Assembly: GCA_022843265.1 (NCBI GenBank)
Contig: JALHNZ010000002.1
Location: forward strand, 1-64,000
Direction of reading: 5' to 3'
From: Gemmatimonadaceae bacterium
Lineage (GTDB): Bacteria > Gemmatimonadota > Gemmatimonadetes > Gemmatimonadales > Gemmatimonadaceae
Length of the DNA: 64,000 nucleotides
In this document: positions 9,506 to 25,716 of the stretch, piece after piece
Layout of the letters: each line of letters starts with the position of its first letter
How positions within the stretch are numbered: position 1 is the stretch's first letter
The notes under the pieces: model-generated
Database searches by the model: none
What the model was told of the DNA's origin: nothing
What the model saw: only the letters and a program-made list of their open reading frames with translations
Position numbers and translations under genes: made by a program

Positions 9506-9508
9506 CAC

Positions 9509-10711
9509 GTGACGCACACCGAACTCGTCGCACTGATTCAGGCAGCGCGCTCTGCGGTGACGGCGCGCCCTGGCGTGCCACTCGCGTTGGCTACGCTGGT
9601 TGCGGTTGACGGATCGTCGTACCGTCAGCCCGGGGCACGCATGCTGTGCGACGGCGAGGGACGTGTGCTTGCGGGTGCGATCAGCGGTGGTTGTCTCGAA
9701 GGGGATGTCGCGCTGCGTGCCGGAGAGGTGTGCACGCGCGGCGCAGCATCACTGATTGCGTACGATCTGCGCGAAGATCTCGAAACCATCTGGGGATTTG
9801 GCTCTGGCTGCGAAGGGGTGGCGCATATCATGCTCGCGCCACTCGCTGACCTGCGTGAACTCGAAGCGGCGTGCGGCAGCGCCGAGTTGCGACAGAGCGG
9901 CGTCTTGCTCACCACCATTGAGTCATCAGACGTTTCGTGCGTTGGTCGCACATTGTTTGTACGCGATGCGGCGCCCGCGCTCGCCCTGCGTTCGGAAATG
10001 AACGCGCGAGTGCAGGATACGGTGCGTCATACGGATCAGCCGTTTCTCGGACAGCAGACCACACCAAACGGAACGGAACGCACGTTTGGCGCGCCTGTGC
10101 GACCGCCGGTGCACGTAGTCGTGGTTGGCGCGTCGCGGGGCGCGGAATCGTTTGCTCGTCTTGCCGTCGCGACCGGCTGGCGTGTCACGGTGATTGATGA
10201 TCGCCCCACGTTGCTCGATGCTCTCGAGCTGCCAGCAGGTGTTCAGCGGATGCAGATCGCACCCACGAATGCGTTTGATGCCATGAAGGCGCACGTATGT
10301 CCGGTAGACGCGCGCACCACGTTTGCGCTGTGCACGCATCGTTTCGACGCCGATCTTGCGTGGCTGCAAGCCGCGTTGGCCACGGAGTCGCCGTATGTCG
10401 GCGTGTTGGGTTCCCGTCAGAGAGCCGCTCGACTCGTACGCTCACTCGTTGACGCGAAACCAGACATGCGCGCGCGAGATCGGGCCCGTCTCTTTGCACC
10501 CATCGGTCTCGATCTGGGCGGCGACTCACCAGACGAAGTCGCGTTGGCGGCGCTCGCGGAAATGCAGGCGGTGCTGCAGTCGCGTCCTGGAGGTTCGTTA
10601 CGAGAACGTCAGACACCGCTGCACACGCGAAGCGAAACACCGAAGCTGGCCGGCGAACAGATCGCAGCGACCTGCACAACACCAACAGTCACGCCGCGCG
10701 AGCGTCGGTAG
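9509..10711 (+). CDS. XdhC/CoxI-family molybdenum-cofactor insertion protein
   Basis: A 400-residue XdhC/CoxI protein. The N-terminal XdhC/CoxI domain shows the typical ATLVAVDGSSYRQPGARML and GAISGGCLEGDV segments, and the C-terminal domain has a Rossmann-type strand (HVVVVGASRGAESFARLA) and the late motif TPYVGVLGS-like (SPYVGVLGSRQRAARL). Family members bind molybdopterin cofactor, help add the terminal sulfido ligand and deliver it to xanthine-dehydrogenase-type molybdenum hydroxylases. The start is GTG, 3 bp after the S9 peptidase stop. The next gene, a MobA-like nucleotidyltransferase, starts 1 bp after the stop, a pairing often seen in cofactor maturation. No molybdenum hydroxylase is encoded in this window. 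The C-terminal tail is poorly conserved. Confidence 0.9.
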   Translation: MTHTELVALIQAARSAVTARPGVPLALATLVAVDGSSYRQPGARMLCDGEGRVLAGAISGGCLEGDVALRAGEVCTRGAASLIAYDLREDLETIWGFGSGCEGVAHIMLAPLADLRELEAACGSAELRQSGVLLTTIESSDVSCVGRTLFVRDAAPALALRSEMNARVQDTVRHTDQPFLGQQTTPNGTERTFGAPVRPPVHVVVVGASRGAESFARLAVATGWRVTVIDDRPTLLDALELPAGVQRMQIAPTNAFDAMKAHVCPVDARTTFALCTHRFDADLAWLQAALATESPYVGVLGSRQRAARLVRSLVDAKPDMRARDRARLFAPIGLDLGGDSPDEVALAALAEMQAVLQSRPGGSLRERQTPLHTRSETPKLAGEQIAATCTTPTVTPRERR

Positions 10712-10712
10712 C

Positions 10713-11360
10713 GTGCGCACGCGCCAGGTGGCGGCCGTGCTGCTTGCGGCTGGTGCGTCTCGCCGGATGGGATCCGCGAAACAACTGTTGCGCGATGCGA
10801 ACGGCGAGGCGTTGCTGGTTCGCCTTGTGCGAGACGCACGCGAGGGTGGGTGCACGCCCGTGGTGGTGGTGCTCGGCGCGTACGCCGAGAGTGTGCGCGA
10901 CGTGCTGCGCGATGCGCTGCACGATGAGATTCGCAATGTGACGCCGGATAAGACAGGCGCTGCCGAGTCGATTGTGTGTGTGGAGAACGCCGATTGGGCC
11001 GATGGCATGTCGGGTTCGATCCGTGCGGGGTTGCAGGCGCTTGAACCGGGTACCGCCACCGCCATGATGTTGCTGACCTGCGACCAGCCGTCGGTTGATG
11101 TCGCGCATATACGCGCCCTGCTGGCCGCGCATGAACACGATGGCGGGCGCGTGGTGTCGCAGTATGATGAGGTGTGTGGAGTTCCCGCGATCTGGCCGCG
11201 CGCGGAATGGCCGTTGCTCGCATCACTTGAGGGAGATCGGGGTGCCCGATCGTTGCTCCGCGGCGAGGAATCCGCCGTCCCACTCCCGGGCGGTGCGATG
11301 GATCTTGATACTCCCGAAGATGTGTATCGCTGGCGACGCACTGAACCGCGCATTGATTGA
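10713..11360 (+). CDS. MobA/MocA-like molybdenum cofactor nucleotidyltransferase
   Basis: A 215-residue NTP-transferase-like protein. The nucleotide-binding signature LLAAGASRRMGSAKQ lies at residues 10-24, and the metal-binding acidic motif LLTCDQPSVD comes at mid-length. This pattern is that of MobA-like enzymes such as MocA, which join CTP or GTP to molybdopterin to make the dinucleotide cofactor. I chose the GTG at 10713 because it follows the xdhC stop by 1 bp and brings the signature to the expected place near the N-terminus. Together with xdhC it implies a molybdenum hydroxylase elsewhere in the genome. Whether CTP or GTP is used cannot be read from the sequence. Confidence 0.87.
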   Translation: MRTRQVAAVLLAAGASRRMGSAKQLLRDANGEALLVRLVRDAREGGCTPVVVVLGAYAESVRDVLRDALHDEIRNVTPDKTGAAESIVCVENADWADGMSGSIRAGLQALEPGTATAMMLLTCDQPSVDVAHIRALLAAHEHDGGRVVSQYDEVCGVPAIWPRAEWPLLASLEGDRGARSLLRGEESAVPLPGGAMDLDTPEDVYRWRRTEPRID

Positions 11361-11412: not shown

Positions 11413-11459
11413 GCACGCAGCGGGAATTCTCCGGCATCCAGCGAACTACGTCTGAACGT

Positions 11460-12992
11460 ATGACTCACATGCCCGGAACCCCCTTGATGCTTCCAGATGA
11501 TGTGCACAATCGTGCCCTCATCGCGCACGTTCATCCGCCAGACTGGAAGAACCCCACGGCGGCCGCTCGATATCAGCTGGTCGTGATCGGTGGCGGCACC
11601 GCAGGACTGGTGAGCGCGGCAATTGCAGCGGGCCTTGGCGCAAAAGTGGCGCTGATCGAACGGCACCTGCTTGGTGGCGACTGCCTCAATGTGGGGTGTG
11701 TTCCGTCCAAGGCGGTGTTGCGCGCTTCGCGAGCATGGCATCAGGCACGTTCGGCGCAGGCCGAGTTTGGCGGTCCTGCGGCTGTTGGCGAGGGCGACTT
11801 TGCGGCGGTTATGGAGCGACTGCGCAAACTTCGCGCGGGTATTGCGCCGATTGATGGTGCGCCACGCTTTGCCTCATTGGGTGTGGATGTTTTTCTCGGG
11901 GACGCACGGTTTACTGGTCATGAGACCATTGAAGTGGCCGGCCAAACGCTTCGCTTCCGGCGGGCGATGATTGCCACCGGTGCGCGCGCGGCGCTGCCGC
12001 CCATTCCCGGCCTCGCGGACGCGAATCCGCTCACGAACGAAACCGTGTTCTCGCTGACGGCACGACCGAAACGGCTGGCCATCATCGGTGCCGGGCCGAT
12101 TGGGTTGGAAATGGCGCAGTCATTTGCCCGGTTCGGAAGCCACGTCACCGTGCTGAACGCCGATGCGCGGGCCATGCCGCGTGATGACGCGGATGCGGCC
12201 AGAGTGGTAGAAGCGTCATTGACGCGAGACGGCGTGGTGTTTCACCACGACGTGACCATCACACAGGTTGCACGCGAAGGTAACGTCACCACCTTGCAGG
12301 CTACGCACGACGGGCAGCGCATTGCGCTTGCGGTGGACGCGCTCCTGGTGGCGGCCGGTCGCACGCCCAACACCGATAGTCTCGGTCTCGACGCGGCTGG
12401 TGTACAGTTCACAAAAACCGGCGTCACGGTTAACGAGAAATTTCGCACCAGTAATTCGCGTGTCTACGCCATCGGTGATGTTTCGTCGCGTTTTCAGTTC
12501 ACACACGCCGCCGACGCGCAGGCGCGTCTGGCCGTGCCCAACGCGTTGTTCTTTGGATTGGGTGGTGGAAAGTCGTCCTCACTGGTGATTCCATGGACGA
12601 CCTACACGTCGCCGGAAGTGGCGCACGTGGGGCACACAAGCGAAGCGCTCGAGCGCGCGGGCACACCGTTCGATACGATTACCATGCCAATGCACGACAA
12701 CGATCGTGCCATCCTCGAAAGTGATACCGAAGGATTCTTTCGCGTGCATCTGGCACGCGGAACCGATCAGATGCTGGGCGCCACACTCGTATGCGAAGGT
12801 GCGGGCGACATGATCGGTGAAGTGGTGAGCGCGATGAAACGCGGCGATGGATTGCGCTCGTTCAGCGGCGTCATTCGACCGTATCCAACGCGCGCTGCGA
12901 TTCTGGGTCGCGCAGCTGACCAGTACAACCGTGGTCGACTCACACCCACCGCCAAACGTGTGTTCGCCGCGTTTTTTCGAGCAACCACATGA
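11460..12992 (+). CDS. MerA-like FAD-dependent pyridine nucleotide-disulfide oxidoreductase
   Basis: A 510-residue class-I flavoprotein disulfide reductase. It has the FAD-binding GGGTAG (residues 44-49), the redox-active CLNVGC pair (Cys75 and Cys80), the NAD(P)-binding AIIGAGPIGLEMAQ segment, the ATG-type motif AIGDV and a C-terminal dimerisation domain. It lacks the N-terminal heavy-metal-associated domain, and the C-terminus (FAAFFRATT) has no Cys pair, so mercury reduction is unlikely despite the overall likeness to mercuric reductase and dihydrolipoamide dehydrogenase. It overlaps the TVP38 gene by 4 bp (ATGA); the two families are often adjacent or fused in other genomes. Its true substrate is not established. 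Confidence 0.88.
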   Translation: MTHMPGTPLMLPDDVHNRALIAHVHPPDWKNPTAAARYQLVVIGGGTAGLVSAAIAAGLGAKVALIERHLLGGDCLNVGCVPSKAVLRASRAWHQARSAQAEFGGPAAVGEGDFAAVMERLRKLRAGIAPIDGAPRFASLGVDVFLGDARFTGHETIEVAGQTLRFRRAMIATGARAALPPIPGLADANPLTNETVFSLTARPKRLAIIGAGPIGLEMAQSFARFGSHVTVLNADARAMPRDDADAARVVEASLTRDGVVFHHDVTITQVAREGNVTTLQATHDGQRIALAVDALLVAAGRTPNTDSLGLDAAGVQFTKTGVTVNEKFRTSNSRVYAIGDVSSRFQFTHAADAQARLAVPNALFFGLGGGKSSSLVIPWTTYTSPEVAHVGHTSEALERAGTPFDTITMPMHDNDRAILESDTEGFFRVHLARGTDQMLGATLVCEGAGDMIGEVVSAMKRGDGLRSFSGVIRPYPTRAAILGRAADQYNRGRLTPTAKRVFAAFFRATT

Positions 12993-13738
12993 ATGATCGT
13001 TCAGGTGAGTTGCCACAGCGCAGAGTTCCAGACGTGCCGCCGGCTGACGCCGCGAAATCCTCGCGCTCATCCGCCCTGTTGCGACTTGGCATTCTGGCGC
13101 TTGTGCTCGTAGCAGCCGGTTACGGCGCCTCGCGCGCCGGCCTGCTTGATTTGCGCGACTCGGCCGCGTTGCTTGCCGCCATTGAGCGGGCGCGCGAGGT
13201 GCCATACATCCACGTGGTGTTCGTGTTGGTCTACATCGTTGTTGCGACGTTTGGTCTACCGGCCACCCCGTTCACACTCGCGGGCGGCATCCTGTTTGGT
13301 ACGGCACTTGGATCTGGCCTCAACTGGCTCGGCGCGACGGTGGGGGCCACGGGCACCTACCTGCTCGCGAGAACGTTGGGTGGAGACGCTTTGCGAAAGC
13401 TGCTCGGCGGTCAGGCAGCGCGGCTCGACCTGCTCGCGGGCGAGCGTGGATTCAGCACGCTTTTTCGCTTGCGATTGTTACCGGTGATCCCGTTCAACGC
13501 GCTCAGCTTCACCGCCGCGCTCTCAGGAATTCCGATTCGTCCGTACGTGGCGGCCACGGGACTTGGGATTCTGCCTGGCACCATCATCTATACGTATTTT
13601 GCCGGCAGTCTGGTCGGCGGTGTGAGTGGTGCGTCGTCTACGGCGCGCACCAATCTGATCATTGCGTCTGTACTGCTGTTGGCCTTGTCATTTCTTCCAT
13701 CCATGGTGCAACGGATACGGCGTGGAAATACCAGTTGA
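12989..13738 (+). CDS. TVP38/TMEM64 (DedA-superfamily) membrane protein
   Basis: A 249-residue inner-membrane protein. After a polar N-terminus there is a helix at about residues 32-48, then the conserved core: TFGLPATPFTLAGGILFG (re-entrant loop), NWLGATVGATGTYLLAR, and FRLRLLPVIPFNALSFTAAL, followed by AATGLGILPGTIIYTYF. These are the signature segments of the TVP38/TMEM64 family, which is related to DedA and thought to act in lipid or ion transport. The start overlaps the flavoprotein stop by 4 bp, so both are likely made together. The gene's end overlaps the start of the next gene, an ECF sigma factor. Confidence 0.9.
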   Translation: MNDRSGELPQRRVPDVPPADAAKSSRSSALLRLGILALVLVAAGYGASRAGLLDLRDSAALLAAIERAREVPYIHVVFVLVYIVVATFGLPATPFTLAGGILFGTALGSGLNWLGATVGATGTYLLARTLGGDALRKLLGGQAARLDLLAGERGFSTLFRLRLLPVIPFNALSFTAALSGIPIRPYVAATGLGILPGTIIYTYFAGSLVGGVSGASSTARTNLIIASVLLLALSFLPSMVQRIRRGNTS

Positions 13739-14303
13739 CAAACACGTTGCGTTTCACGACCTCGCGTTACGTTGGCTTCCCGACGTCACGCGTTTCGCAC
13801 ACTCGCTAACGCGGAACGAATCCGACGCGGAAGATCTTGTGCAGGAGACGTATTTGCGCGCCTGGCGACATTGGGATTCGTTCAGAGTGGGGAGCGAAGC
13901 GCGGGCCTGGCTCTTTACCATTGCGCGCAACGCGTGGCGTAAACGTGCGCCACGCGATGCACGGCTTGTTGCGGTCGAAGACGATACGCTGCAAGCGCTG
14001 GCCGACGAACACTTCCCGCTCGGCGCGCCCAACGACGTGCTGCAGCGACTCAGTGACGCCGATTTGCGGCCAGCAATTCATCAGGCAATCGCCGCATTAC
14101 CCGAAGCCTTCCGCGAAGTGGTGGAGCTTGTGGAGCTCCAGGAACTACCGTACGCCGAAGCCGCGGCGGTTTTGGAAATCCCGGTTGGTACCGTAAGATC
14201 GCGGCTGTTTCGCGCCCGTCGGTTACTGCAGACGTCGTTGCTTGAATACGCGAGAGACGCTGGCCTCGCGCCGGTCCACGCTGAGAAGGAGTCATCACAA
14301 TGA
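13722..14303 (+). CDS. ECF-type RNA polymerase sigma factor
   Basis: A 193-residue extracytoplasmic-function sigma factor. Region 2 includes the core-binding and -10 recognition helices (SDAEDLVQETYLRAWRHW, then ARAWLFTIARNAWRKR), and region 4 holds the helix-turn-helix YAEAAAVLEIPVGTVRSRL for -35 recognition. No extra C-terminal domain is seen. I chose a GTG at 13722, which overlaps the TVP38 gene by 17 bp; the frame is open further upstream only inside that gene. The next gene overlaps by 4 bp and encodes its probable anti-sigma factor. Its targets probably include the downstream TonB receptor and transporter genes, but no promoter motif could be proved. Confidence 0.92.
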   Translation: MEIPVDKHVAFHDLALRWLPDVTRFAHSLTRNESDAEDLVQETYLRAWRHWDSFRVGSEARAWLFTIARNAWRKRAPRDARLVAVEDDTLQALADEHFPLGAPNDVLQRLSDADLRPAIHQAIAALPEAFREVVELVELQELPYAEAAAVLEIPVGTVRSRLFRARRLLQTSLLEYARDAGLAPVHAEKESSQ

Positions 14304-14581
14304 TCACAGACACCGATCGCAAGACGCCTGACATGCCATCGCTCGACTGCGGCGCGGCCGTTCGCATGTTATGGGACTATCTGGACGGGAACCTGGATTC
14401 GGTCAACGAAGCGGAGGTCCGCGCGCACGTGACACGATGCTCGCATTGTTTTCCGCACGCCAACTTCGGACAGATTGTGATCGACGCGATGGCGCAGGTG
14501 CGCAATACACCCGACAACGAGGCGACGGTGCGCGCGGGTGTGCTGTCGCGGCTTCGTGCGGAAGGCTACGAGGGGTCCTGA
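14300..14581 (+). CDS. Zinc-finger (zf-HC2) anti-sigma factor
   Basis: A 93-residue small protein with the ZAS-type zinc motif: Cys in SLDCGAA, then HVTRCSHC giving the H-x3-C-x2-C pattern, within a helical domain (WDYLDGNLDSVNEAEV). It has no transmembrane segment, so it should be a soluble anti-sigma factor, possibly redox or metal responsive as in the RsrA group. It overlaps the sigma factor gene by 4 bp (ATGA), the usual arrangement for such pairs. A good ribosome-binding sequence (AAGGAG) precedes the start. Confidence 0.85.
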   Translation: MITDTDRKTPDMPSLDCGAAVRMLWDYLDGNLDSVNEAEVRAHVTRCSHCFPHANFGQIVIDAMAQVRNTPDNEATVRAGVLSRLRAEGYEGS

Positions 14582-14683
14582 GCGCTGGAGATCCGCGTTC
14601 AACCTTTGGATCGTACATCCTCCACGCCACTCCATTGATCCGGCGACCTGTCATGCCGCCGAACCTTTTCGAATGAACACTCC

Positions 14684-17506
14684 ATGATGTTGCCAAGGCA
14701 TGCATTGTTTTGGGCTGCGCTGTGCGCGCCGCTCCCTCTCACCGCGCAGGATGCGGGTACGGTCACTGGCGTCGTTCGTTCGGCGGCGGGACTGCCAATC
14801 CGCGGCGCGCAGGTCACCTTGAATGCCGGCTCGGCGAGCACAGACTCGTCCGGACGCTTTGCACTCGCCGTCACGAGCGAAGCAACGGGATACGTGGTCG
14901 TGCGTGCGCTTGGTTTCCTTCCGGATTCCGTCCGCATCGAGTCGATAGCACGCGGTTCCGCGCGCACCATTGCGCTCACGCTGCGTCCCCTCGCCTCGCT
15001 CGGTGTGGTGTCGGTCGTCGCACCGTTGCCTCGTCCACTGCTCAATACACAGGATGCCGCCACTGGCGGCACGGTAGAGCGCGCGGAGCTTGAGCGACTT
15101 CCCACAGACTCGCGCGACCCGATCGCACTTGCCTACACAATTCCGGGCGTTTCAACCGCGACGGGATTCTTTGGCGATGCGCCACGCCTGTCGATCAACG
15201 GTTCGAACGCGCTCTACACACAATATTCGTTGGACGGTCTGGAAAACAACGAAGGCTTTCTCGGCGGCGCACGCGTAGAAGTACCGCTGTCGGCGTTGCA
15301 ACGCTTTGGCGTATTGGCCAACACGTATGGTGCGGAGTTCGGTCGCAGCTCGAACGGTGTTGTGAATATGGAAACGCGCGCCGGCGGTGCGAAATGGCAA
15401 GGGGAGGCGTTTGTCTACAATCGCCCCGGGCTGCCGGTAGACGCGCGTTCCGCAATCGTGCCGTCCGGCCAGAACCCTGAAGATTTCCGTCGTGCGCAGG
15501 AGGGCTTTCGGCGTTCGCAGATTGGCGCGGCCGGGGGTGGTCCGCTGCGCGCTGATCGCACTTTTGTCTTTGGTGCGCTTGAATACACCAACGAGAACGA
15601 AGATCGCATTGCGTCCACAGCAAATACCACATTCACGGGACGTGAAGTGCGCGGCACGGTGAAAGGATTCGGGCGCATTGATCACGGGTGGTCGCCGAAC
15701 CAGACGTCAACACTGCGCATGGCCGCGAGCCGCGTCGATCGCGAAGGACGCGGCAGCGGTATTGTTGCGCCGGAGGCCGACATTGTCACGCAACGCATCG
15801 GAACGGTCACCGCACTCATGCATCGTTCTGCACTGCGTGAGGGCCGCGCCAGCAATGTGTTTGCCGCGCAGCTTGGTACGTTCCGCTGGAATTTTCCGCC
15901 GGCGCAAAGCAGCTTCGATATTCCGCAGGTGACCATCCGCCGCGTGCAGGGTATCGACACCGTCTCCGTAGGCGTTGTTGGCTCCAGCAACTTCGTCTTT
16001 GATGAAGCGGAAACGCAGGTGCAGCTGCGCAATGTGTTTGAGACGTTTGTCGGCGACAAGCATCAGCTGCGCATTGGCGCCGACGGCTGGCGCTCCAACT
16101 TTACGCTCTCCGGTTCGCAGACCAACCCGTCGGGGTCATACGTTGTGCTGGATGAAGGCAACATTCCGCAGCGCGGCAATCGTTTTGCGTTTGCCGATGT
16201 GCCGCAGAACGTGCGTGTACTCAGCTACACGGTGGACGCGGCACAGAAGCAGGTTGATTTATCCCAGACACTCATCGGTGCGTTCATTGAAGACGCGTGG
16301 CGCTTGTCCCCTGCCTTCACGCTCACACTCGGATTGCGCTGGGACTACGACGATCTCACGTCGCGCGGTCAGAGCTCGCCGGATCTCGACAACTGGCAGC
16401 CACGCGCATCGATCAACTGGCTTGTTGGTCCATCATCCGTACTGCGCGCCGGCGCCGGTTTGTACGCCGGCAAGTTCCCGTACGCGGTGTACTCTGACGC
16501 TGTGCAGTTCGGGCCCGATGGCAATCAGACCGTGACCTTTGCCGGCGCCGATGTGCCGACGTATTTGCAAGGTCCGCGCACCGCGGCGCTGGATCGCTCG
16601 CAGCTGCCACCGGGCGAAGTGCGCGAGCTGTTTGCACTGGGACTTGAGCAGCCAATGAGCCGTCAGTTCTCCGCTGGTTGGCAGCAGCAGATCGGCACAC
16701 GTATCGCGATTGGCATGGACGCCGTGTACATGGACACGCGCAACCTGCCGCGTTCGTGGGATTTGAATGCCAATACGCGTGGCGTTGGTCCGGCCGACAC
16801 CATCAGCCTGTCCGTGACAACGGGCGACGCATTTCGCCCGGTCGCGCCGGTCACTGGGGGGTTCCGCCGTCGTACCACCACCGAAAGTGGTGGTCGCTCC
16901 ACGTACGCTGGTCTGTACACCACCGCACGCTGGATCGCCGATAACGCATGGTTGATTGATGCGAACTGGATCTGGTCGCGCGCACGCACGAACACTGAAG
17001 ACATCAACTTCAACGCGACCCAGGGCAACAACTTTGACGCCGAGTGGGCTGACGCGATCAACGATCGTCGTCATCGCGTGGCCATGCGTGCCACGTACAC
17101 CGGCTTCCGACATCTGGCGCTCTCTGGAGTTGCCGATTGGCAGACGGGGCAGCCGATCAATCGCATTGCGTTCTTCCGCGATCTTGATGGTTCGGGTGAC
17201 ACCTTCGGTAACGGATTCCTCGGCAATCAGGATCGATTTTTTGGCGTGTCGCGCAATAGCGAACGTCTGCCGAGTGCGCTGTTCACCAGCGCGAGTGTGT
17301 CGTACGAGTTGCGGGTGCGCAATCAGGGCGTAGAGCTGCGCGCTGATGCGTTCAATCTGCTTAACAGTACCAATGCGGGCGGTTACGCCAATGGCCTGCC
17401 GGGCGGTGGGACGCGCACGCAGGTGGGACGCCCTGGAGATCCGATCGTGACGTCGGCCGTGGCGCCGCCGCGTCAGCTACAGTTTTCGGCGCGTTGGTTG
17501 TTTTGA
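14684..17506 (+). CDS. TonB-dependent outer-membrane receptor with carboxypeptidase-regulatory-like N-terminus
   Basis: A 940-residue outer-membrane protein. A signal peptide (cleavage near PLTAQ) is followed by a CarboxypepD_reg-like beta-sandwich of about 85 residues (GTVTGVVRSAAGLPIRG), then a plug domain (LERLPTDSRDPIALAYTIPG) and a large 22-strand-type barrel with many aromatic-ended strands. The last strand ends RQLQFSARWLF with the C-terminal Phe used for BAM recognition. It lies between the sigma/anti-sigma pair and a complete ABC importer, which suggests that it carries the importer's substrate across the outer membrane. Neither the substrate nor a TonB box could be identified with confidence. 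The next gene starts 5 bp downstream. Confidence 0.92.
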   Translation: MMLPRHALFWAALCAPLPLTAQDAGTVTGVVRSAAGLPIRGAQVTLNAGSASTDSSGRFALAVTSEATGYVVVRALGFLPDSVRIESIARGSARTIALTLRPLASLGVVSVVAPLPRPLLNTQDAATGGTVERAELERLPTDSRDPIALAYTIPGVSTATGFFGDAPRLSINGSNALYTQYSLDGLENNEGFLGGARVEVPLSALQRFGVLANTYGAEFGRSSNGVVNMETRAGGAKWQGEAFVYNRPGLPVDARSAIVPSGQNPEDFRRAQEGFRRSQIGAAGGGPLRADRTFVFGALEYTNENEDRIASTANTTFTGREVRGTVKGFGRIDHGWSPNQTSTLRMAASRVDREGRGSGIVAPEADIVTQRIGTVTALMHRSALREGRASNVFAAQLGTFRWNFPPAQSSFDIPQVTIRRVQGIDTVSVGVVGSSNFVFDEAETQVQLRNVFETFVGDKHQLRIGADGWRSNFTLSGSQTNPSGSYVVLDEGNIPQRGNRFAFADVPQNVRVLSYTVDAAQKQVDLSQTLIGAFIEDAWRLSPAFTLTLGLRWDYDDLTSRGQSSPDLDNWQPRASINWLVGPSSVLRAGAGLYAGKFPYAVYSDAVQFGPDGNQTVTFAGADVPTYLQGPRTAALDRSQLPPGEVRELFALGLEQPMSRQFSAGWQQQIGTRIAIGMDAVYMDTRNLPRSWDLNANTRGVGPADTISLSVTTGDAFRPVAPVTGGFRRRTTTESGGRSTYAGLYTTARWIADNAWLIDANWIWSRARTNTEDINFNATQGNNFDAEWADAINDRRHRVAMRATYTGFRHLALSGVADWQTGQPINRIAFFRDLDGSGDTFGNGFLGNQDRFFGVSRNSERLPSALFTSASVSYELRVRNQGVELRADAFNLLNSTNAGGYANGLPGGGTRTQVGRPGDPIVTSAVAPPRQLQFSARWLF

Positions 17507-17511
17507 GACGG

Positions 17512-18807
17512 ATGCGCACGTCAATGATCGGTTGTGCACACCGCCGAGTGCTGGTGCGAGCACTGCGGTCCGTTGTGCTCGCACTCGGTGTGACGGTATT
17601 CGTCGCCTGTGCGGGCGAAACATCACAGCAGTCGGCCCAGCTGGAAGTTGCAGCTCTGGTGGCGCTACCGTGGGACAGCGTTGAAGCACGCGCCCGCGGC
17701 ACAACGGTCACATGGCGCAAGTGGCGCGGCGATCCGGCGATTAACGCCTATGTGGACGGCTGGCTCGCGCCACGTTTACGCAGCCTGTACGACATCACGC
17801 TTGAAGCGGTTGAAGGACAGGGACCAGAGATTGTGAACCAGCTCGTGCTCGAACGCGAGGCTGGTCGCGGGCGAGGCACGGCGAGCCTTGTCTGGATCAA
17901 CGGCGAAACATTCTCCAATCTGCGCGCTGAGTCGCTGCTCGCAGGACCGTGGGCCGGTGTGTTGCCGAACGCTGCGTTTGTCGACTCCGCATCACCCATC
18001 ATTTCGCGCGACTTTGAGCAGGATCCGAGCGGCTTCGAAAGCCCGTGGGGCTCGGTGCAGTTCGCACTCATCTACGACACGGTGCGCACGCCCAAGCCGC
18101 CCCGGTCATTCGATGAGTTGTCTGCGTGGATTCGAGCCAACCCTGGTCGGTTCACCCATGATCAGGGGTTTTCCGGCATCACGTTCCTGAAGATGCTGAT
18201 GTACGCTCGCGGTGGTGGTGTGAACGCTTTTGCGAATGGGTTCACCGAGGAGCGCTACGCCGCCGGCCAACAGGTGGTGTTTGCGTGGCTCGATTCCACG
18301 AGCAGCAGCTTCTGGCGAAACGGCAGTACGTATCCGCCAGATGTCGCGGCCATGCACCGGCTGTTTGCCAACGCCGAGATCGATTTCTCCATGTCGAACA
18401 ATCAGCACGATGTGGTGAACAAGGTGCGACAGGGTGTGTTGCCACCGACCGCGCGTGCGCTGGTGTTGCGTGACGGCACCATTGCGAATTCGCATTACGT
18501 GGGCATTCCGTTCAACGCGCCCAATCCGGCTGGCGCGATGGTTGTCGCAAACCTGCTGCTGTCGCCCGAAGCGCAGTTCGAAAAACAGAAGCCCAGCGTG
18601 TGGGCCGATGGAACCGTGCTGAATGTTCGTATCGTCCCTGAACCGTGGCGCGCTCGTTTCGCAAACGCGGAAGCCGATCCGCAGGCGATCCCCCGGGACA
18701 CGCTCAGCCGCTACGCCGTTCCCGAGGTATCGCCGCGCTATCACGAGCGACTCAACGCCGACTGGCGCGACTGGGCGCGTGCCGCAACGTCGTCTCGCGA
18801 GCCGTGA
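17512..18807 (+). CDS. ABC importer substrate-binding protein, YnjB-like
   Basis: A 431-residue exported solute-binding protein, probably a lipoprotein (signal ending VTVFVAC, Cys near residue 34). The body has the type-II periplasmic binding protein pattern: TVTWRKWRGDPAINAYVDGWL near the N-terminus, a middle with PWGSVQFALIYD, and a C-terminal half with VLPPTARALVLRDGTIAN. The overall order of motifs and the neighbours match the E. coli YnjB protein, whose ligand is not firmly known. Start 17512 (MRTSMIGCAHRR) is 5 bp after the TonB receptor stop; a second ATG at 17524 is also possible. Two permease genes and an ATPase follow in the same direction. Confidence 0.82.
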   Translation: MRTSMIGCAHRRVLVRALRSVVLALGVTVFVACAGETSQQSAQLEVAALVALPWDSVEARARGTTVTWRKWRGDPAINAYVDGWLAPRLRSLYDITLEAVEGQGPEIVNQLVLEREAGRGRGTASLVWINGETFSNLRAESLLAGPWAGVLPNAAFVDSASPIISRDFEQDPSGFESPWGSVQFALIYDTVRTPKPPRSFDELSAWIRANPGRFTHDQGFSGITFLKMLMYARGGGVNAFANGFTEERYAAGQQVVFAWLDSTSSSFWRNGSTYPPDVAAMHRLFANAEIDFSMSNNQHDVVNKVRQGVLPPTARALVLRDGTIANSHYVGIPFNAPNPAGAMVVANLLLSPEAQFEKQKPSVWADGTVLNVRIVPEPWRARFANAEADPQAIPRDTLSRYAVPEVSPRYHERLNADWRDWARAATSSREP

Positions 18808-18832
18808 GCTCGTTCATGGCGTAAGTTCGAAC

Positions 18833-19687
18833 ATGCTTCGGCGTGTTCCTTTTCCCGTGTTGCTTGCGATGTTGGTGGCCACGCCTGTGCTCTTCGGCGT
18901 GGCCTACTCTGCATTGGCGGTGTTGGGGATCGCAGGCGCGGGCGCGTCAGCGGTTGCCGATTCCGACCGGTTGTTTTCAGTGCTCACCGATCGCACCACG
19001 TGGCGCGCCACGGGGTGGTCTCTGTACGTGGCGTTCAGCAGCACCGCGATTGCCGCGACCGCCGCGGGAGCCGTTGCGCTGCTCTTCCCAACACACAAGC
19101 GCAGCGATCGTTTCGCCCGTTCGTTAGCAACGCTGCCACTTCCCGTACCGCACCTTGTCGCCGCTGCCACCGCGCTCTTTGTCTTGAGTCAAAGCGGACT
19201 GCTTGCCCGCGTGCTGCACGCGCTGGGCCTGATCGACGCGCCCGCCAACATGCCGGCCTTAGTCTACGATGCCGGTGGCATCGCACTGATCCTCGCGCTG
19301 GCGTGGAAAGAACTGCCGTTTCTGGCCGTTGTGGCCATCGCACTGCGCGCAGGCATTGCGCGCGACTTGGAAGACGCGGCTCGAACGCTGGGCGCATCAC
19401 CACGAACCGTGGCGCGAACAGTTACCTGGCCGTTGTTATGGCGCGGTCTTTTTCCCGCGGTGATTGCCACGTTTGTGTTTGCCTTCGGAAGCTTCGAATC
19501 GGCGGTGTTATTGGCCCCGATTGATCCTGCGGCGCTTCCAGTGCTCACGATGGAGCGTTTTGCCGATCCGCTGCTCGCTCGCCGCGGCGAAGCCTACGGA
19601 CTGGCGTTGATCGCACTCGGTGTTGCGGCAGTGGCTGTTGCAGCACACGAAGTCACGCGTGCGCGATGGGGATCACTCGTCAGATGA
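18833..19687 (+). CDS. ABC importer permease, first half (YnjC-like)
   Basis: A 284-residue integral membrane permease with about six helices (first at residues 8-30). The EAA-type loop that contacts the ATPase is readable as DLEDAARTLGASPRTVARTVTWPLL. In E. coli, YnjC is a single long protein with two permease halves; here the halves are two genes. The start at 18833 follows the binding-protein gene by 25 bp. The stop TGA overlaps the next permease start (ATGA at 19684-19687). It should form a heterodimer with the second permease in the inner membrane. Confidence 0.86.
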   Translation: MLRRVPFPVLLAMLVATPVLFGVAYSALAVLGIAGAGASAVADSDRLFSVLTDRTTWRATGWSLYVAFSSTAIAATAAGAVALLFPTHKRSDRFARSLATLPLPVPHLVAAATALFVLSQSGLLARVLHALGLIDAPANMPALVYDAGGIALILALAWKELPFLAVVAIALRAGIARDLEDAARTLGASPRTVARTVTWPLLWRGLFPAVIATFVFAFGSFESAVLLAPIDPAALPVLTMERFADPLLARRGEAYGLALIALGVAAVAVAAHEVTRARWGSLVR

Positions 19688-20502
19688 TGCCCCCCGCGCT
19701 GGTACCGCAGTCAAGAGTGCTGACATCACCGTGGCGTGCGATGGCGATTGCCGCGCTGGCCATCTCCACTGTTCTGCCATTTGTGATTCTCCTGTTGCAA
19801 TCCTTCGGAGAAAGTTGGCGGTGGCCGGATGTCTTGCCGAGTGGCCTGACCGGGTCGGCTTGGAGAGCCGTTGCAGGCGGTTCGCTCGGGCGCGCGGCGG
19901 TAAACAGCGCCGCGCTGGGCGTTGCGACCGCAGTCGCCGCCGTGTGCGTCGCACTGCCCGTTGGTCGATCACTCGCGCAACTGCAGGGGGCGTGGCGACA
20001 TGTTGCAGCCGCACTCGTGTTTCTTCCGGTCGCTGCACCGCCCATTGCGCTCGGTGCGGGCCTGCAGATTGTCACGCTGTGGCTCGGTATCGCCAGCACG
20101 TCGGTGGGGGTATGGTTTTCGCACACCGTGCCCGCGATTGGTTATGTCTCGTTGCTCTTTCTCGGCGTATTTACCTCGCGCGGTACCGAAGCTGAAGAAG
20201 CGGCGCGCACGCTTGGTGCATCAACGTGGCATACGTGGACGATGGTGGTGATTCCCTCGTTGCGCGCACCCATCACCGAAGCACTCGCGATCGCATTCCT
20301 TATATCATGGACTCAAGTGGCGCTGACACTTGTGGTAGGCGGCGGTGCATTGCGCACCTTGCCGCTTGAAGTGCTGACGCTCGTACGCGCTGGACAGGAT
20401 CGACCGGCTGCTGTTGGTGCATTGTTGCTCATTGTGCCGGCGATTGCAGCGCTGGCCGCCTTGCGCCTTGGCGCGCGACGTACAGACGCGCTGCCAACAT
20501 GA
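19684..20502 (+). CDS. ABC importer permease, second half (YnjC-like)
   Basis: A 272-residue permease with about six membrane helices (first at residues 18-40) and a clear EAA loop, EAEEAARTLGASTWHTWTMV. It is the partner of the upstream permease and corresponds to the C-terminal half of E. coli YnjC. The ATG at 19684 gives the ATGA overlap; an in-frame ATG at 19666 and one at 19687 are alternatives. The ATPase gene overlaps its end by 4 bp. Close packing of the four transporter genes points to one operon. Confidence 0.86.
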   Translation: MMPPALVPQSRVLTSPWRAMAIAALAISTVLPFVILLLQSFGESWRWPDVLPSGLTGSAWRAVAGGSLGRAAVNSAALGVATAVAAVCVALPVGRSLAQLQGAWRHVAAALVFLPVAAPPIALGAGLQIVTLWLGIASTSVGVWFSHTVPAIGYVSLLFLGVFTSRGTEAEEAARTLGASTWHTWTMVVIPSLRAPITEALAIAFLISWTQVALTLVVGGGALRTLPLEVLTLVRAGQDRPAAVGALLLIVPAIAALAALRLGARRTDALPT

Positions 20503-21653
20503 CGCGCGCTGCCAATGCACTATCAGTGGAAGGGCTTGCAGTGCCGTTTGCGACGCCCGCTTCACTCAGCAGCACGGCCGGCCCGCAGGGGCTGCACCTT
20601 ATATCGCTCGAAGTAGCACGAGGCGAGCGTGTTGTTCTGCTCGGACCGTCCGGTGAGGGCAAAACATCATTGCTACGTGCCATCGCAGGCCTCACACCAG
20701 TCAGTGCCGGCCGCATTCAGGTTGGCGATCTTGATGTCACGCACATGTCCGCTGAATCACGCGGCACGGTGTACCTGCATCAAACGCCGGTCCTGTTCCC
20801 GCATTTGAGCGTTGAGGCGAACGTTGCGTTCCCGCTCACCATACGCCGCGTGCCAGCCGCTGAACGCACGCGCACGGTGCACACGCTGCTTGAACGGCTC
20901 CACCTCGGTGAGCTTGCCAAGCGTGCCCCACACACGCTGAGCGGCGGTCAAAAACACCGGGTGGCGTTGGCCCGTGCACTGGCAGCGAAGCCGAACGTAT
21001 TGTTGCTCGACGAGCCGCTCTCTGCACTCGACCCTGTCTTGCGCCGCGATGTACGCGACGCGATTCGAGAGGCGCATGCCGAGAGTGATGCCGGCTTGTT
21101 GCTCGTGACACACGATCTTGATGACGCTACTTCGCTCGGTGACAGGCTGGCCATCATGCTCGATCGCACGATTGCGCAGGTGGCAACGGCCGAGGTGCTG
21201 TTCGCGTCTCCTGTGTCAGTAGCGGTGATGCGATTCGTGGGATTGCATCAGGAGTTCGCGGGCGTGGTTCGTGACGCGCAGTCTGTTGACACGCCGCTGG
21301 GCGCAGTGCCTATGCCACGCGGTGCAACGGCTTCACGTGACGCGTTGTCCGACCCGCACGTTTCCAGCCTTTCGAGTGGCCAGCGCGTGGTACTCGGTAT
21401 TCGGAGCGACGCAATACGTTGCCAATCAAGTGCACCGCGCAGCAGCGCTGATCGCCGTGAGCTCACCAACACTCTCACGCTTCCCAGTGCGCGCGTGCTG
21501 AGCATCAGTCACCGTTCGGGTGGTACGACCGCGGCGGTGCAGCTGTCAGACGTTGTCATGCATGCGCTCGTCGACCCGATGTCCCTGCCGCCGATCGACT
21601 CACTGGTGACCGTGCACATTGATGTGCGTGGCCTGATCGTGTTTCCCGAATGA
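20499..21653 (+). CDS. ABC importer ATP-binding protein (YnjD-like)
   Basis: A 384-residue ATPase. Walker A GPSGEGKT is at residues 49-56, the signature LSGGQ at 147-151, Walker B LLLDE at 168-172, and the switch histidine in LLVTHDLDD near 206. The 'SGEGKT' form and the HQTPVLFPHLSVEANVAFPL Q-loop region fit the YnjD/ThiQ/PotA-type importer ATPases. A C-terminal extension of about 140 residues resembles a regulatory TOBE-like domain and makes it longer than E. coli YnjD (217 residues). It supplies energy to the two permeases encoded just upstream. It overlaps the second permease by 4 bp. Confidence 0.88.
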   Translation: MTRAANALSVEGLAVPFATPASLSSTAGPQGLHLISLEVARGERVVLLGPSGEGKTSLLRAIAGLTPVSAGRIQVGDLDVTHMSAESRGTVYLHQTPVLFPHLSVEANVAFPLTIRRVPAAERTRTVHTLLERLHLGELAKRAPHTLSGGQKHRVALARALAAKPNVLLLDEPLSALDPVLRRDVRDAIREAHAESDAGLLLVTHDLDDATSLGDRLAIMLDRTIAQVATAEVLFASPVSVAVMRFVGLHQEFAGVVRDAQSVDTPLGAVPMPRGATASRDALSDPHVSSLSSGQRVVLGIRSDAIRCQSSAPRSSADRRELTNTLTLPSARVLSISHRSGGTTAAVQLSDVVMHALVDPMSLPPIDSLVTVHIDVRGLIVFPE

Positions 21654-21662
21654 GACGGTGCC

Positions 21663-22274
21663 ATGTTTGACGAATGGTTCCGCATTCGAAAGGAGCGTTG
21701 GTTCGGGCCACTTGCGCAGTGGCTGGGTACCTGGTGCTCGCCGTTGGCGCTGACGCTGCTCGCGTTGCTCGTTGGCATTGCCGCAGCAGTAGCGGCGAGC
21801 CAATCCGCGTGGCGGCTCGCGTTCGCGCTTTGGATTACCAACCGACTGCTCGACGGAATCGACGGCACCGTTGCCCGTCTGCACAATCGTCAGACGGACA
21901 TGGGCGGTTACCTCGACATCCTGCTCGACTTCATAGTCTACGCGCTGATGCCCATTGGTATCGCGCTCGCCTTCGACGTGCGCACCAGCTGGCTCGCAAG
22001 CAGCGTGCTGCTGGCCTCATGGTTCGTAAATGCCGCGTCGTGGATGTACCTCTCAGCCGTTCTCGAACGCCGCGGTGCTGGCGCCAGCTCACGTGGTGAA
22101 CTCACCACGGTGACCATGCCGCGCGGTCTCGTAGCCGGAACCGAAACCGTCATCTTCTTTTCGCTCTTCCTGCTCTTGCCTGAATACTACGTGACGCTCG
22201 CGTGGATCATGACAGTCGGTGTGATGATCGGTGTGTTGCAGCGTCTCGTCTGGGCTTCACGGCATCTTCGGTGA
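21663..22274 (+). CDS. CDP-alcohol phosphatidyltransferase (YnjF-like)
   Basis: A 203-residue membrane enzyme with the full CDP-alcohol phosphotransferase signature D-G-x2-A-R-x8-G-x3-D-x3-D, readable from DGTVARLHNRQ (near residue 66) to GGYLDILLD. Several membrane helices follow. The family transfers a CDP-linked phosphatidyl or similar group to an alcohol to make phospholipids. In E. coli, the ynjB-C-D-E-F cluster also ends with such an enzyme (YnjF), so the association is conserved across distant phyla. It begins 9 bp after the ATPase stop and ends the long plus-strand run. The acceptor alcohol is unknown. Confidence 0.87.
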   Translation: MFDEWFRIRKERWFGPLAQWLGTWCSPLALTLLALLVGIAAAVAASQSAWRLAFALWITNRLLDGIDGTVARLHNRQTDMGGYLDILLDFIVYALMPIGIALAFDVRTSWLASSVLLASWFVNAASWMYLSAVLERRGAGASSRGELTTVTMPRGLVAGTETVIFFSLFLLLPEYYVTLAWIMTVGVMIGVLQRLVWASRHLR

Positions 22275-22509: not shown

Positions 22510-25500
22510 CTAATCGCCAGCCACGGGGACAGGCATTTCAGAAGTGTTAGAGCTCCGGCCCGTGCGACGCAGTTTTGAAAGCACCCATGCACCGAGGTCG
22601 TCGAGGTAGGTGTAGGCAACCGGAACCACGAGCAGCGTAAGGGCGGTACTCGTGATCAGTCCACCGATGACCGCGCGCGCCATTGGTGCACGAAAGCCGC
22701 CGCCCTGGCCCATGGCGAGTGCGATGGGCAACATGCCGAAGATCATGGCCAGCGTGGTCATCATGATGGGACGCAATCGCACGGCGCCCGCTTCAATCAG
22801 CGCTTCAAAACGGGGCATGCCGTCGCGACGCCGCTCATTAGCGTTGTCAACCAGAAGAATCGCGTTCTTGGTGACCAGACCAAAGAGCATGATCACGCCA
22901 ATCATGGACATGATGTTGATCGTATCACCCGTGAGCAGCAGTGCGATCAACACACCAATCAACGACAGCGGGAGCGACAACATGATCGCGATCGGCTGTG
23001 TAAACGACTCGAACTGCGAGGCAAGGATCAGGAAAATCAGGACCACGGCCAGCAAGATCGCTTCGATTACGTAGCCGCCGGTTTCCTCGAGCTCTTTCGT
23101 TTCACCACCGAGCTGAAAACGATAGCCCTCAGGGAGCGTGAGCGTATTGAGCGCCTCGTTCAGTTTGGCACTCGCCACCGAGATGGACACGCCAGGCGCG
23201 GGACTGCCTTCCACGATCACCGTGCGCTGCAAATCCTGGCGACGGATTTCAGCAGGTGCAAACCCGTCTTCAAGCCGAGCGATATCACCGAGTGGAACGC
23301 TAGCGATACCGTTCGCATTGCCGGTGGCCGTGGGCACGGGGATCTGCGCGAGATCGGTGCGTGACACGCGTGATTCCGGGGCGAGTTGCACGCGCACATC
23401 GCGCTCTTCACCTGTGGGATCTTCCCAACGCGTTGCCACTTCACCGGCAAAGAGCGGGCGAATCGTCGCGGCGAGCGAACCCACATCCAGCCCAACACGA
23501 TTGGCAACATCACGATCAAGATCGACGCGCACTTCGGGACGCGGCGCCCCGAGTGTGGTGCGTGAGTCCACGACCTCTGGTAGTGCACGCACCGCAGCCA
23601 GCGCCTGTGCCGAGATCATGGTGAGTGTATCGAGGTCGCGCCCCCGCAGTTCGACTTGCAGCGGTGCCACCGGTCCACCAAGACCACCACTTAACAACAC
23701 CTGTGACTGCACGCCTGCCACGTCCTGCATGGCCGTACGCGCCTCGGCAATCATTTCGAGTTGAGAGCGCGTGCGCTCGTTGCCAGGCACCAGCTTGACA
23801 TACGCTTCACCGGTGGTGACGGTACCAATCGCACCGGCACCAACTGTGGTATATACGTACGACACTTCCGGCATGGCGGTGAGCATTGCGTCAATCTGCT
23901 CAGCCTTGGCCTGCGTGTACGGCAGGCTTGCCCCCTGCGGCGTTTCAAATTTTACAATGAATTCGCCGTCATCACTGTCTGGCGAGAACGAGCCGCCAAC
24001 AAGCGGGAACAGCGCCATCGCACCAACAAACGCCACCACGGCCATGAGTACCGTGCTGCGCCGGTGTCCAAGCGCCCAGCGAAGCAGCCCGCGATAGCGT
24101 AGCGCCTGCTGATCGAACCAGCGATTGAAACGGCTGATCGTCCGGGTGATCACATTGCCGCCTTCGCCCGTGTGCGGCGAGACGCCCCACCACGCGCTGA
24201 GCATGGGCGTAAGTGTGAACGACACGAACAGCGACACGAGCACGGCCCACGCCACGGTGAGACCGAACTCAAAGAAGAATCGACCAATGATGCCTTTCAT
24301 AAAGGCCACCGGTACGAACACAGCTACAATCGACAGCGTGGTCGCCAGCACGGCGAGTACGATTTCGCGTGTGCCTTCGCGCGCCGCAGTGAACACGTCA
24401 TCGCCCAGCTGTCGTCGACGCACAATGTTTTCTACCACAACAATCGCGTCGTCAATCAGAATACCAATTGAGATCGAGAGGGCGAGCAGCGTGAGCACGT
24501 TAAGCGTAAAACCCAGAATGCCCATCAGCACGAATGCGGAGATCACCGACACCGGCAAGGCCAGCGCGGTAATAGCCGTGGCCTTGATGTCGTTGAGGAA
24601 CAGCATCACGATCAACACCGTGAGAATCGCGCCGAGCACCAGCTCGTGAATCACGTCGTCTACCGACTGACGGATCATGGTGGAATTGTCGCGCACCACT
24701 TGCAGCGTCGCACCTTGCGGCAGCAACGCCCGCGCTTCGTCGAGCGCTTCGGCGACGCCATCGGCCACTTCCACCGTGTTGGCGCCTGACACTTTCAGCA
24801 GGTCGAGCGCGACCGCCACTTCGCCGTTCACCAGTGCCACGGAGCGCTTTTCTTCCACGCCGTCTTCTACGCGGGCGACATCACGCAGGCGAACGGGGTT
24901 CGTACCGCGCGTCGCAATGATCACATCTTCAAAGCCGGCCGGATCCTCAATGCGGCCAGTGACGCGAACGAGTTGTTCGGCCAAACCGCGCTCAAGCCGA
25001 CCTGCAGGTACCTCAAGGTTCTGTCGTTGCAACGCACCCATTACTTCGGGCACCGTGATGCCGAGCGCGCGCATGCGCTCCGGCTGCAGATACACGTTGA
25101 CCTGACGGCGCACACCGCCTGACACACGCACTTCACCCACGCCCGCGACTGCTTCCATGCGCCGACGCAGCGGCTCGTCGGCGATTGTGGTCAGCTCGCT
25201 CAGCGGCACCGTTTTGGAACGCAGCGCGAGCGAAATGATCGGCAGATCCGACGCGTTGAACTTCTGGACGATGGGTGGATCGATGTCCGTTGGCAGATCG
25301 CGTCGAATGAGCTCGAGCTTGGACCGCAGGTCCTGCGACGCCGCGTCGGCGTCACGTCCGAGATCAAACTCCACCGTAACCTGCGACACGCCTTCAAGCG
25401 AAATCGACGTGAGTTTCTTCACGCCTTGCACAGGATTAAATGCTTCTTCAAGTCGCCGTGTGACCTCGCGCTCTACGGTTTCCGCGCTCGCACCCGGGTA

Positions 25501-25716
25501 CGTGGTTTGCACCGATACGACGGGAATGCTCACATCCGGAAACTGATCGATCGGCAGTCCGCGATAGGCGAACAGGCCGAGCACCACCAGCCCGAGCATG
25601 ATCATGGTAGTGAACACCGGACGGCGAATGGCGACGCCGCTCAGTCCTCCACCCTGCTCCACCGCACGCTTCTCGCCGCCCTCACCGGCGGCGCGTCCTT
25701 CCTCGTGCTGAGACAT
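22510..25716 (-). CDS. RND efflux transporter, inner-membrane pump (complete)
   Basis: A 1068-residue AcrB/HAE1-type pump. After a polar N-terminus comes RRPVFTTMIMLGLVVLGLFA as the first helix, then PDVSIPVVSVQTTYPGAS and the porter domain. Helix 4 carries the proton-relay pair in GILIDDAIVVVENIV, and the second half repeats the helix bundle. It works as a trimer with the adaptor and TolC genes directly upstream, and the operon order (regulator, channel, adaptor, pump) is the same as at 1-3840. Its start overlaps the adaptor stop. The polar extension before the first helix is about 25 residues longer than usual. The substrate cannot be told. Confidence 0.95.
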   Translation of the reverse strand: MSQHEEGRAAGEGGEKRAVEQGGGLSGVAIRRPVFTTMIMLGLVVLGLFAYRGLPIDQFPDVSIPVVSVQTTYPGASAETVEREVTRRLEEAFNPVQGVKKLTSISLEGVSQVTVEFDLGRDADAASQDLRSKLELIRRDLPTDIDPPIVQKFNASDLPIISLALRSKTVPLSELTTIADEPLRRRMEAVAGVGEVRVSGGVRRQVNVYLQPERMRALGITVPEVMGALQRQNLEVPAGRLERGLAEQLVRVTGRIEDPAGFEDVIIATRGTNPVRLRDVARVEDGVEEKRSVALVNGEVAVALDLLKVSGANTVEVADGVAEALDEARALLPQGATLQVVRDNSTMIRQSVDDVIHELVLGAILTVLIVMLFLNDIKATAITALALPVSVISAFVLMGILGFTLNVLTLLALSISIGILIDDAIVVVENIVRRRQLGDDVFTAAREGTREIVLAVLATTLSIVAVFVPVAFMKGIIGRFFFEFGLTVAWAVLVSLFVSFTLTPMLSAWWGVSPHTGEGGNVITRTISRFNRWFDQQALRYRGLLRWALGHRRSTVLMAVVAFVGAMALFPLVGGSFSPDSDDGEFIVKFETPQGASLPYTQAKAEQIDAMLTAMPEVSYVYTTVGAGAIGTVTTGEAYVKLVPGNERTRSQLEMIAEARTAMQDVAGVQSQVLLSGGLGGPVAPLQVELRGRDLDTLTMISAQALAAVRALPEVVDSRTTLGAPRPEVRVDLDRDVANRVGLDVGSLAATIRPLFAGEVATRWEDPTGEERDVRVQLAPESRVSRTDLAQIPVPTATGNANGIASVPLGDIARLEDGFAPAEIRRQDLQRTVIVEGSPAPGVSISVASAKLNEALNTLTLPEGYRFQLGGETKELEETGGYVIEAILLAVVLIFLILASQFESFTQPIAIMLSLPLSLIGVLIALLLTGDTINIMSMIGVIMLFGLVTKNAILLVDNANERRRDGMPRFEALIEAGAVRLRPIMMTTLAMIFGMLPIALAMGQGGGFRAPMARAVIGGLITSTALTLLVVPVAYTYLDDLGAWVLSKLRRTGRSSNTSEMPVPVAGD

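Follow-up and report, generated by a model that had tools for sequence, protein, structure and literature searches.

Linkage of a YnjBCD-type importer to a CDP-alcohol transferase, a TVP38 protein and a MerA-like flavoprotein in Gemmatimonadaceae and other bacteria

A YnjBCD-type ATP-binding cassette (ABC) importer is encoded in a soil bacterium of the family Gemmatimonadaceae together with a cytidine diphosphate (CDP)-alcohol phosphatidyltransferase, a TVP38/VTT membrane protein and a MerA-like flavoprotein. The same head-group-type transferase, TVP38 protein and flavoprotein reductase accompany the importer in several major lineages, with a TonB-dependent receptor in many of the Gram-negative ones. 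The stretch analysed here (the window, 64,000 nucleotides; G000:C2:1-64000) forms part of a 4.6-Mb draft genome; G-numbers designate genomes, G000 being that of the window, and L-numbers designate the loci compared. Importers of this kind are already known though uncharacterised: no substrate is established for YnjBCD, the ABC importer of Escherichia coli K-12, and a mutation in ynjC confers fitness under colistin. The linkage reported here provides this orphan transporter with a defined cross-phylum parts list and testable chemistry, and provides a context for studying the role of bacterial TVP38 (COG0398) proteins. It is very probable that the grouping represents a functional unit.

Organization and recurrence of the cassette

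Ten open reading frames (ORFs) occupy positions 11460-22274 on the plus strand. They overlap or are separated by at most 17 bp, except for a 102 bp gap between the anti-sigma factor gene and that of the TonB receptor. Families were assigned by Pfam and NCBIfam scans against the cut-offs of the models. All of the gene families named in a preliminary description of this DNA, as well as their tight packing on one strand, were borne out, but that description had counted nine genes. The block begins with the MerA-like protein, a flavin adenine dinucleotide-containing flavoprotein of the disulfide-reductase type (11460-12992; the ATG at 11487 may be the true start), followed by the TVP38/VTT protein (12989-13738), a COG0398-like member of the DedA superfamily homologous to YdjX and YdjZ. 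After a sigma/anti-sigma pair, considered below, come the TonB-dependent receptor (14684-17506; CarboxypepD_reg, plug and OMP_b-brl_4 domains), the YnjB-family substrate-binding protein (17524-18807), permeases A (18812-19687) and B (19666-20502), both BPD_transp_1 proteins and equivalent to the N- and C-halves of YnjC, the YnjD-equivalent ATPase (20499-21653; ABC_tran) and the YnjF-homologous CDP-alcohol phosphatidyltransferase (21663-22274). The designation of the importer as Ynj-type was substantiated by the NF008633 score of the binding protein (382 bits, cut-off 203, residues 33-416 of 427) and by the E. coli-type B-C-D order of binding protein, two permease domains (here two genes) and ATPase.

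Among 298 Gemmatimonadota genomes, YnjB exceeded the cut-off in 15, all belonging to one order, and a fragment was present at a contig end in G130. The nearest relatives of the window protein derive from Gemmatimonas metagenome-assembled genomes. The loci of this phylum have the order TonB receptor-binding protein-permease-permease-ATPase, with the receptor adjoining the binding protein in nearly all; the CDP-alcohol gene is almost always with them, and lies ahead of the receptor in three. At nine further loci, as in the window, MerA-like and VTT genes are situated nearby, with varying order and orientation. The MerA-like family was over its cut-off in 14 of the 16 YnjB genomes versus 40 of the 282 others (Fisher p=8e-10, an optimistic value because the genomes are related). 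G185, a further YnjB genome and a congener of the window organism, carries a broken-up copy of the MerA-like gene at its locus (L030:4600-6105), matching as two separate pieces, as if from a frameshift or an assembly error. In G108 and G112 the MerA-like and VTT genes are away from Ynj, yet still adjacent to each other.

VTT genes number 3-8 per genome and PF01066 genes 4-6, so that roughly 2% of 17-kb stretches would be expected to hold one. Among loci with full flanks, VTT was found in 11/11 from Bacillota, 6/10 from Gemmatimonadota, 2/3 from Acidobacteria and 3/7 from Gammaproteobacteria; for YnjF the corresponding values were 7/11, 8/10, 3/3 and 3/7. It is apparent that Ynj is co-located with VTT and CDP-alcohol genes far above chance. 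The co-occurrence outside this lineage that the preliminary description had put forward as a check was thus observed in several phyla, and the linkage is wider than that description knew.

The cross-phylum loci are the best 80 among 192 retrieved by a query taken from this lineage, and therefore constitute an uneven sample; ORFs in the flanks were called by codon usage. YnjBCD, the CDP-alcohol transferase, VTT and the MerA-like protein recur, in different orders, in Gemmatimonadota, Acidobacteria, Bacillota, Gammaproteobacteria and one alphaproteobacterium. The set surrounds the importer in the acidobacterial locus L047, and in several Bacillota the order is binding protein-permease-permease-ATPase-VTT-YnjF-MerA. 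The cassettes of Bacillus timonensis (L076) and Shouchella (L073) resemble the window in having the same parts in one run and a two-gene permease, but these organisms are Gram-positive and so have no TonB receptor, no extracytoplasmic function (ECF) sigma pair was seen, and a TIGR03169 flavoprotein is added. The earlier claim that a lipid-type transferase is conserved with the importer in distant phyla was confirmed by the loci of Bacillota, Acidobacteria and Gammaproteobacteria.

VTT and MerA-like domains form a single protein in Rhodanobacter-type Gammaproteobacteria and one alphaproteobacterium (fusions in L060, L065, L069 and L115). In the available part of one report, this type of oxidoreductase is the most frequent fusion partner of COG0398 members, and no connection is drawn there to a YnjBCD importer (PMC10127716). 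The two families so fused, TVP38 and the pyridine nucleotide-disulfide oxidoreductases, are encoded by adjacent genes in the window.

YnjBCD has a TonB receptor gene as its neighbour in Gemmatimonadota, Acidobacteria, Gammaproteobacteria and Bacteroidota, the receptors belonging to different subfamilies, and there is also one near L115; this implies a scarce or bulky ligand. All of the partners are missing from nine alphaproteobacterial loci with full flanks, so the importer can also exist without them. In the YnjB tree, the Bacillota, a Gemmatimonadota/Acidobacteria/Rhodanobacter/Bacteroidota group, and the Alphaproteobacteria/E. coli group constitute separate supported branches, and the carriers of the cassette sit on separate deep branches. 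The Acidobacteria are nested within the Gemmatimonadota, which suggests, from the tree topology, horizontal transfer. A fused YnjC occurs mainly in the Alphaproteobacteria/E. coli group. The two permease genes of the window, previously described as a YnjC split in two, are the form found in most other lineages.

A TIGR03169-type (Nterm_to_SelD) flavoprotein gene adjoins the cassette in L032, L047, L115 and 13 Bacillota loci, the only matches taken as genuine, as the profile also matched MerA proteins. It is found also where SelD is absent. A selenium link via this protein was rejected, because SelD fell short of its cut-off in the window genome and in no fewer than five of the genomes that carry TIGR03169 next to Ynj. 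A DUF3047 gene adjoins the cassette at L060:6292-7035; its cluster, c42, is represented also in L021, L054 and L057.

Comparison with the ynj region of E. coli

In E. coli K-12 the genes ydjX-ydjY-ydjZ-ynjA-ynjB-ynjC-ynjD-ynjE lie on one strand, with ynjF convergent with ynjE. YdjX and YdjZ are DedA/TVP38 proteins (PMC7818093), and ydjX/ydjZ with ynjABCD form one FNR-activated unit; YnjE is a molybdopterin-synthase sulfurtransferase (PMC3688515). The BaeR envelope-stress regulon includes ynjA and ynjB (PMC2731931). The ynjC P213S mutation leads to a fitness gain under colistin, ynjC itself being little known and without direct substrate studies (PMC9184624). No paper on YnjBCD function was found in the open-access literature, subscription papers being outside the scope of the search.

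Identity of the window proteins to their E. coli counterparts is 35% over 328 aa for the binding protein (YnjB), 34% for the CDP-alcohol enzyme (YnjF), 36% for the ATPase (YnjD) and 39% for the VTT protein (YdjZ); the permeases match the halves of YnjC weakly. The two systems thus have in common a YnjB binding protein, the YnjC halves, YnjD, YnjF and TVP38 proteins. They differ in that E. coli has a fused permease as well as the AhpD-like YnjA, YdjY and the rhodanese YnjE, its genes are under FNR/BaeR control and ynjF lies on the opposite strand, whereas the TonB receptor, the MerA-like gene and the ECF pair of the window have no counterpart beside E. coli ynj. YnjE, YnjA and YdjY of E. coli had no match among the phylum loci that were compared first, and a YnjE-like protein was encoded a few genes from the importer only in L048.

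Two claims of the preliminary description require amendment in this light. The match to a ynjB-C-D-F order holds for B-C-D but not for ynjF, given its convergent orientation in E. coli. The rhodanese is indeed absent from the cassette, but the MerA-like protein and TVP38 do not take its place: because the E. coli operon contains ydjX and ydjZ, TVP38 is a shared member rather than a substitute for YnjE.

Proposed uptake of a lipid head group and alternative substrates

The reading favoured here is that a scarce compound is imported and becomes a membrane-lipid head group. The TonB receptor would carry the compound over the outer membrane, where the YnjB protein would capture it, and the two permeases and the ATPase would move it to the cytoplasm. 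The CDP-alcohol transferase would then attach the compound, or something made from it, to CDP-diacylglycerol, producing a phospholipid whose head group is unusual, and the VTT protein would move this lipid between leaflets. The MerA-like flavoprotein may carry out a linked reduction of the thiol/disulfide type. This scheme is built on protein families and gene linkage, with a putative ligand and a putative lipid product; in its entirety it is put forward tentatively, as possible but short of probable. It is, on balance, rather doubtful that YnjBCD-YnjF-TVP38-MerA represents a widespread undescribed pathway, with a version in E. coli K-12, in which TonB/ABC scavenging serves a dedicated phospholipid head group flipped by TVP38.

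Head-group uptake is favoured because the common thread among the partners is membrane-lipid chemistry, as seen in the CDP-alcohol transferase, the VTT protein, genes with a flippase domain of the MprF type close to two Bacillota loci and, in Desulfobulbia, genes for an APH-type kinase, a CofC-like protein (DUF2064) and a glycosyltransferase directly after the ATPase gene (L067:13876-16339, L072 and L075, where TIGR04282 and TIGR04283 genes accompany the kinase gene). The 'MerA' matches in L067 and L072 were dropped, since their CVNTGT site is transhydrogenase-like. The VTT protein scores 81.5 bits with PF09335 (cut-off 33.9); its DedA-family relatives are reported to be scramblases or undecaprenyl-phosphate flippases (PMC10127716). 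The CDP-alcohol enzyme scores 47.6 bits with PF01066 (cut-off 22). The residues of the motif DxxDGxxAR...GxxxDxxxD are invariant across 18 aligned proteins, and every motif Asp is kept in the window enzyme, leaving the catalytic motif intact. Its closest relatives of known structure are transferases of the inositol-phosphate type; phosphatidylinositol-phosphate synthases (5D92, 6H53) and IPCT-DIPPS (4MND) share both family and motif with the YnjF group. The window enzyme falls below the cut-off of every head-group-specific NCBIfam model for a named phosphatidyl or archaetidyl synthase (best NF040950, 57 of 180 bits). The colistin fitness effect of ynjC and the membership of ynjA and ynjB in the BaeR regulon also support the lipid side of this reading.

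Several observations weigh against it. In several loci, namely those of most Alphaproteobacteria and of Halomonas, Bacteroidota and Desulfobulbia, no CDP-alcohol transferase lies within 8 kb of YnjBCD; Halobacillus-type loci have VTT and TIGR03169 without YnjF; and in E. coli the strand that carries ynjABCD does not carry ynjF. It is not evident what the MerA-like enzyme would contribute to head-group chemistry, the modelled fold of the binding protein identifies no ligand class, and a TonB receptor suits a small alcohol no better than a metal chelate or a large compound.

The main rival is uptake of a metal or metal chelate. Here a metal complex would enter by way of the receptor and a binding protein of the ferric/metal type, the flavoprotein would reduce the metal or its ligand for release, and the lipid enzymes would be accessory. 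A TonB receptor with an ECF sigma factor, both present in the cassette, is the usual pattern of metal uptake, and some MerA/RclA-type flavoproteins reduce metals. Bufferin-like genes lie directly beside the VTT-MerA fusion and the Ynj importer in the Rhodanobacter-type loci L060 (440-3518) and L069 (5272-7743), the set comprising a DUF2282 peptide (L069), an MNIO enzyme (L060), a DoxX-like protein and an ECF sigma factor. The YnjB protein has a VFVAC lipobox-like stretch, read from the sequence, and is therefore probably a lipoprotein; its structural model (predicted local distance difference test score, pLDDT, 94) has STM0429 and polyamine, ferric and hexose-phosphate binders as nearest folds, among them FutA, FbpA and SfuA. 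These are generic binding proteins and indicate no ligand class. A PDB search with the window YnjB sequence alone gave no meaningful match, and a profile reached only remote FbpA/PotD kin. In FbpA an adjacent Tyr pair holds Fe(III); in aligned YnjB it is replaced by Gln294/His295. Mercuric reductase MerA binds Hg by a C-terminal Cys-Cys pair. The MerA-like protein is a disulfide-reductase-type flavoprotein and not a mercuric reductase, since it passes NF004991 (670 bits, cut-off 620) and matches Pyr_redox_2 but falls below the MerA model TIGR02053 (353 bits, cut-off 454) and its C-terminus, RVFAAFFRATT, has no Cys. Metal uptake also leaves the most constant partners, the CDP-alcohol transferase and VTT, unexplained, and is regarded as unlikely.

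Other ligands of the binding protein were considered by alignment. In PotD a Trp/Asp pair in the ligand loop serves polyamine binding. This pair aligns to Asn322/His324 in YnjB, and a polyamine assignment was rejected. Polar, charged or aromatic residues invariant among 40 YnjB proteins include W67, N74, W124, N126, E128, F130, D163, E172, F210, F216, W264 and N322. No Arg is invariant among these 40, which mildly disfavours, as far as the alignment can indicate, a simple inorganic anion as ligand.

A second alternative is import of a disulfide, a sulfane-sulfur or a related compound that the flavoprotein reduces, with YnjE as the alternative handler in E. coli. The flavoprotein has the redox site CxxxxC (GGDCLNVGCVPSK), which MerA-like proteins of several phyla share; a rhodanese adjoins Ynj in E. 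coli and L064; the anti-sigma factor carries zinc-finger cysteines; and the VTT and CDP-alcohol genes of L042 are separated by a DoxX gene (5616-6035), with a similar one at L054:5766-6173. The absence of a rhodanese from the window cassette and most others, an anti-sigma factor under the RsrA cut-off and the lack of a role for the CDP-alcohol transferase render this alternative decidedly unlikely.

It is very improbable that the system imports thiamine, molybdate or sulfate and that its neighbours have nothing to do with it. The permeases and ATPase score within the Thi/Mod/Cys/Pot superfamily, genes resembling those of molybdenum enzymes (XdhC- and MocA-like) lie just upstream in the genus, and the sulfurtransferase role of YnjE in molybdopterin synthesis fits (PMC3688515). 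Every such model, including ThiP/ThiQ, is nevertheless far under its cut-off, XdhC is unlinked beyond the genus, and the cassette partners recur and so are not unrelated. Thiamine pyrophosphate and molybdenum cofactor riboswitches were absent at the 13 sources scanned, where no riboswitch offered a guide to the ligand.

A link to arsenosugar or organoarsenic metabolism, in which the cassette would import or process arsenosugars and YnjF would make an arsenosugar phospholipid, looked strong at first. L060 (Rhodanobacter) has ArsS, both 'arsenosugar' glycosyltransferases and an ArsM-like methyltransferase near Ynj; TIGR04282/TIGR04283 genes adjoin Ynj in Desulfobulbia and Bacteroidota; and a VTT/TVP38 gene is found near ArsS in 7/20 Gemmatimonadota ArsS loci, three also with a MerA-like gene (L122, L124, L133, L135, L139, L140 and L141, all without YnjB). 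ArsS (TIGR04167) was not over cut-off in the window genome, however, and was absent from 12/16 other YnjB genomes tested. In the phylum it occurs in 0/16 YnjB genomes and 24/298 overall, where about one would be expected (p=0.63). The link was rejected as extremely unlikely. The occurrence of TIGR04282 and TIGR04283 in Desulfobulbia genomes without ArsS indicates that the label 'arsenosugar' may be too narrow.

Predicted control and flanking genes

An ECF sigma factor gene (13722-14303; Sigma70_r2/r4) with a probable GTG start at 13722 overlaps the VTT gene, and is in turn overlapped by the gene for a soluble zf-HC2 zinc-finger anti-sigma factor (14300-14581; 36.8 bits, cut-off 22.2). Region 2 and region 4 domains overlapping a zf-HC2 gene with HxxxCxxC are the features of an ECF/zinc-finger pair, and co-transcription of the two is inferred from the overlap. 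The C...HxxxCxxC residues, retained in three congeners, are consistent with possible redox sensing. The redox or metal sensing envisaged earlier was overstated; the score with the RsrA-type model TIGR03988 is below cut-off (33.6 bits, cut-off 62.5).

In two congeners, G145 and G185, the MerA-like gene is preceded by the sequence GGGAAC-N16-GACTTGYCG, which in G185 also stands upstream of the TonB receptor gene. Exact matches were found nowhere else in those two genomes and not at all in G000 or G243; the reversed motif, used as a control, matched once, in G185. A variant, GGGAAT-N16-GAACTACGTC, is situated upstream of the MerA-like gene in the window (11422-11452, plus strand) as a candidate ECF-type promoter, and gave zero matches in 100 shuffles of the window. 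As the motif was derived from these same sites, its presence there is not independent evidence; its rarity and its two non-homologous sites in one genome are. The motif points to a single operon to which the sigma gene belongs. Once released by the anti-sigma factor, the sigma factor would direct transcription from this promoter through the block. A scan for sigma-70 promoters and terminators gave nothing above chance. The control proposed in the preliminary description is plausible for this operon, but it is not general: the pair adjoins the cassette in the window's genus and otherwise in just one Gemmatimonadota locus (L042). Different ECF genes lie near some of the remaining loci, in one case (L054) with an RskA-type anti-sigma factor.

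Directly upstream of the cassette on the same strand (6971-11360) are prolyl-oligopeptidase-like, XdhC-like and MocA-like genes, named from their translations. The peptidase-XdhC order is conserved in congeners (L030 and L031) but not in other genera. On the minus strand, genes for a resistance-nodulation-division-type efflux pump and a membrane-fusion protein (22510-26921, named from translation) converge on the cassette and lie outside it.

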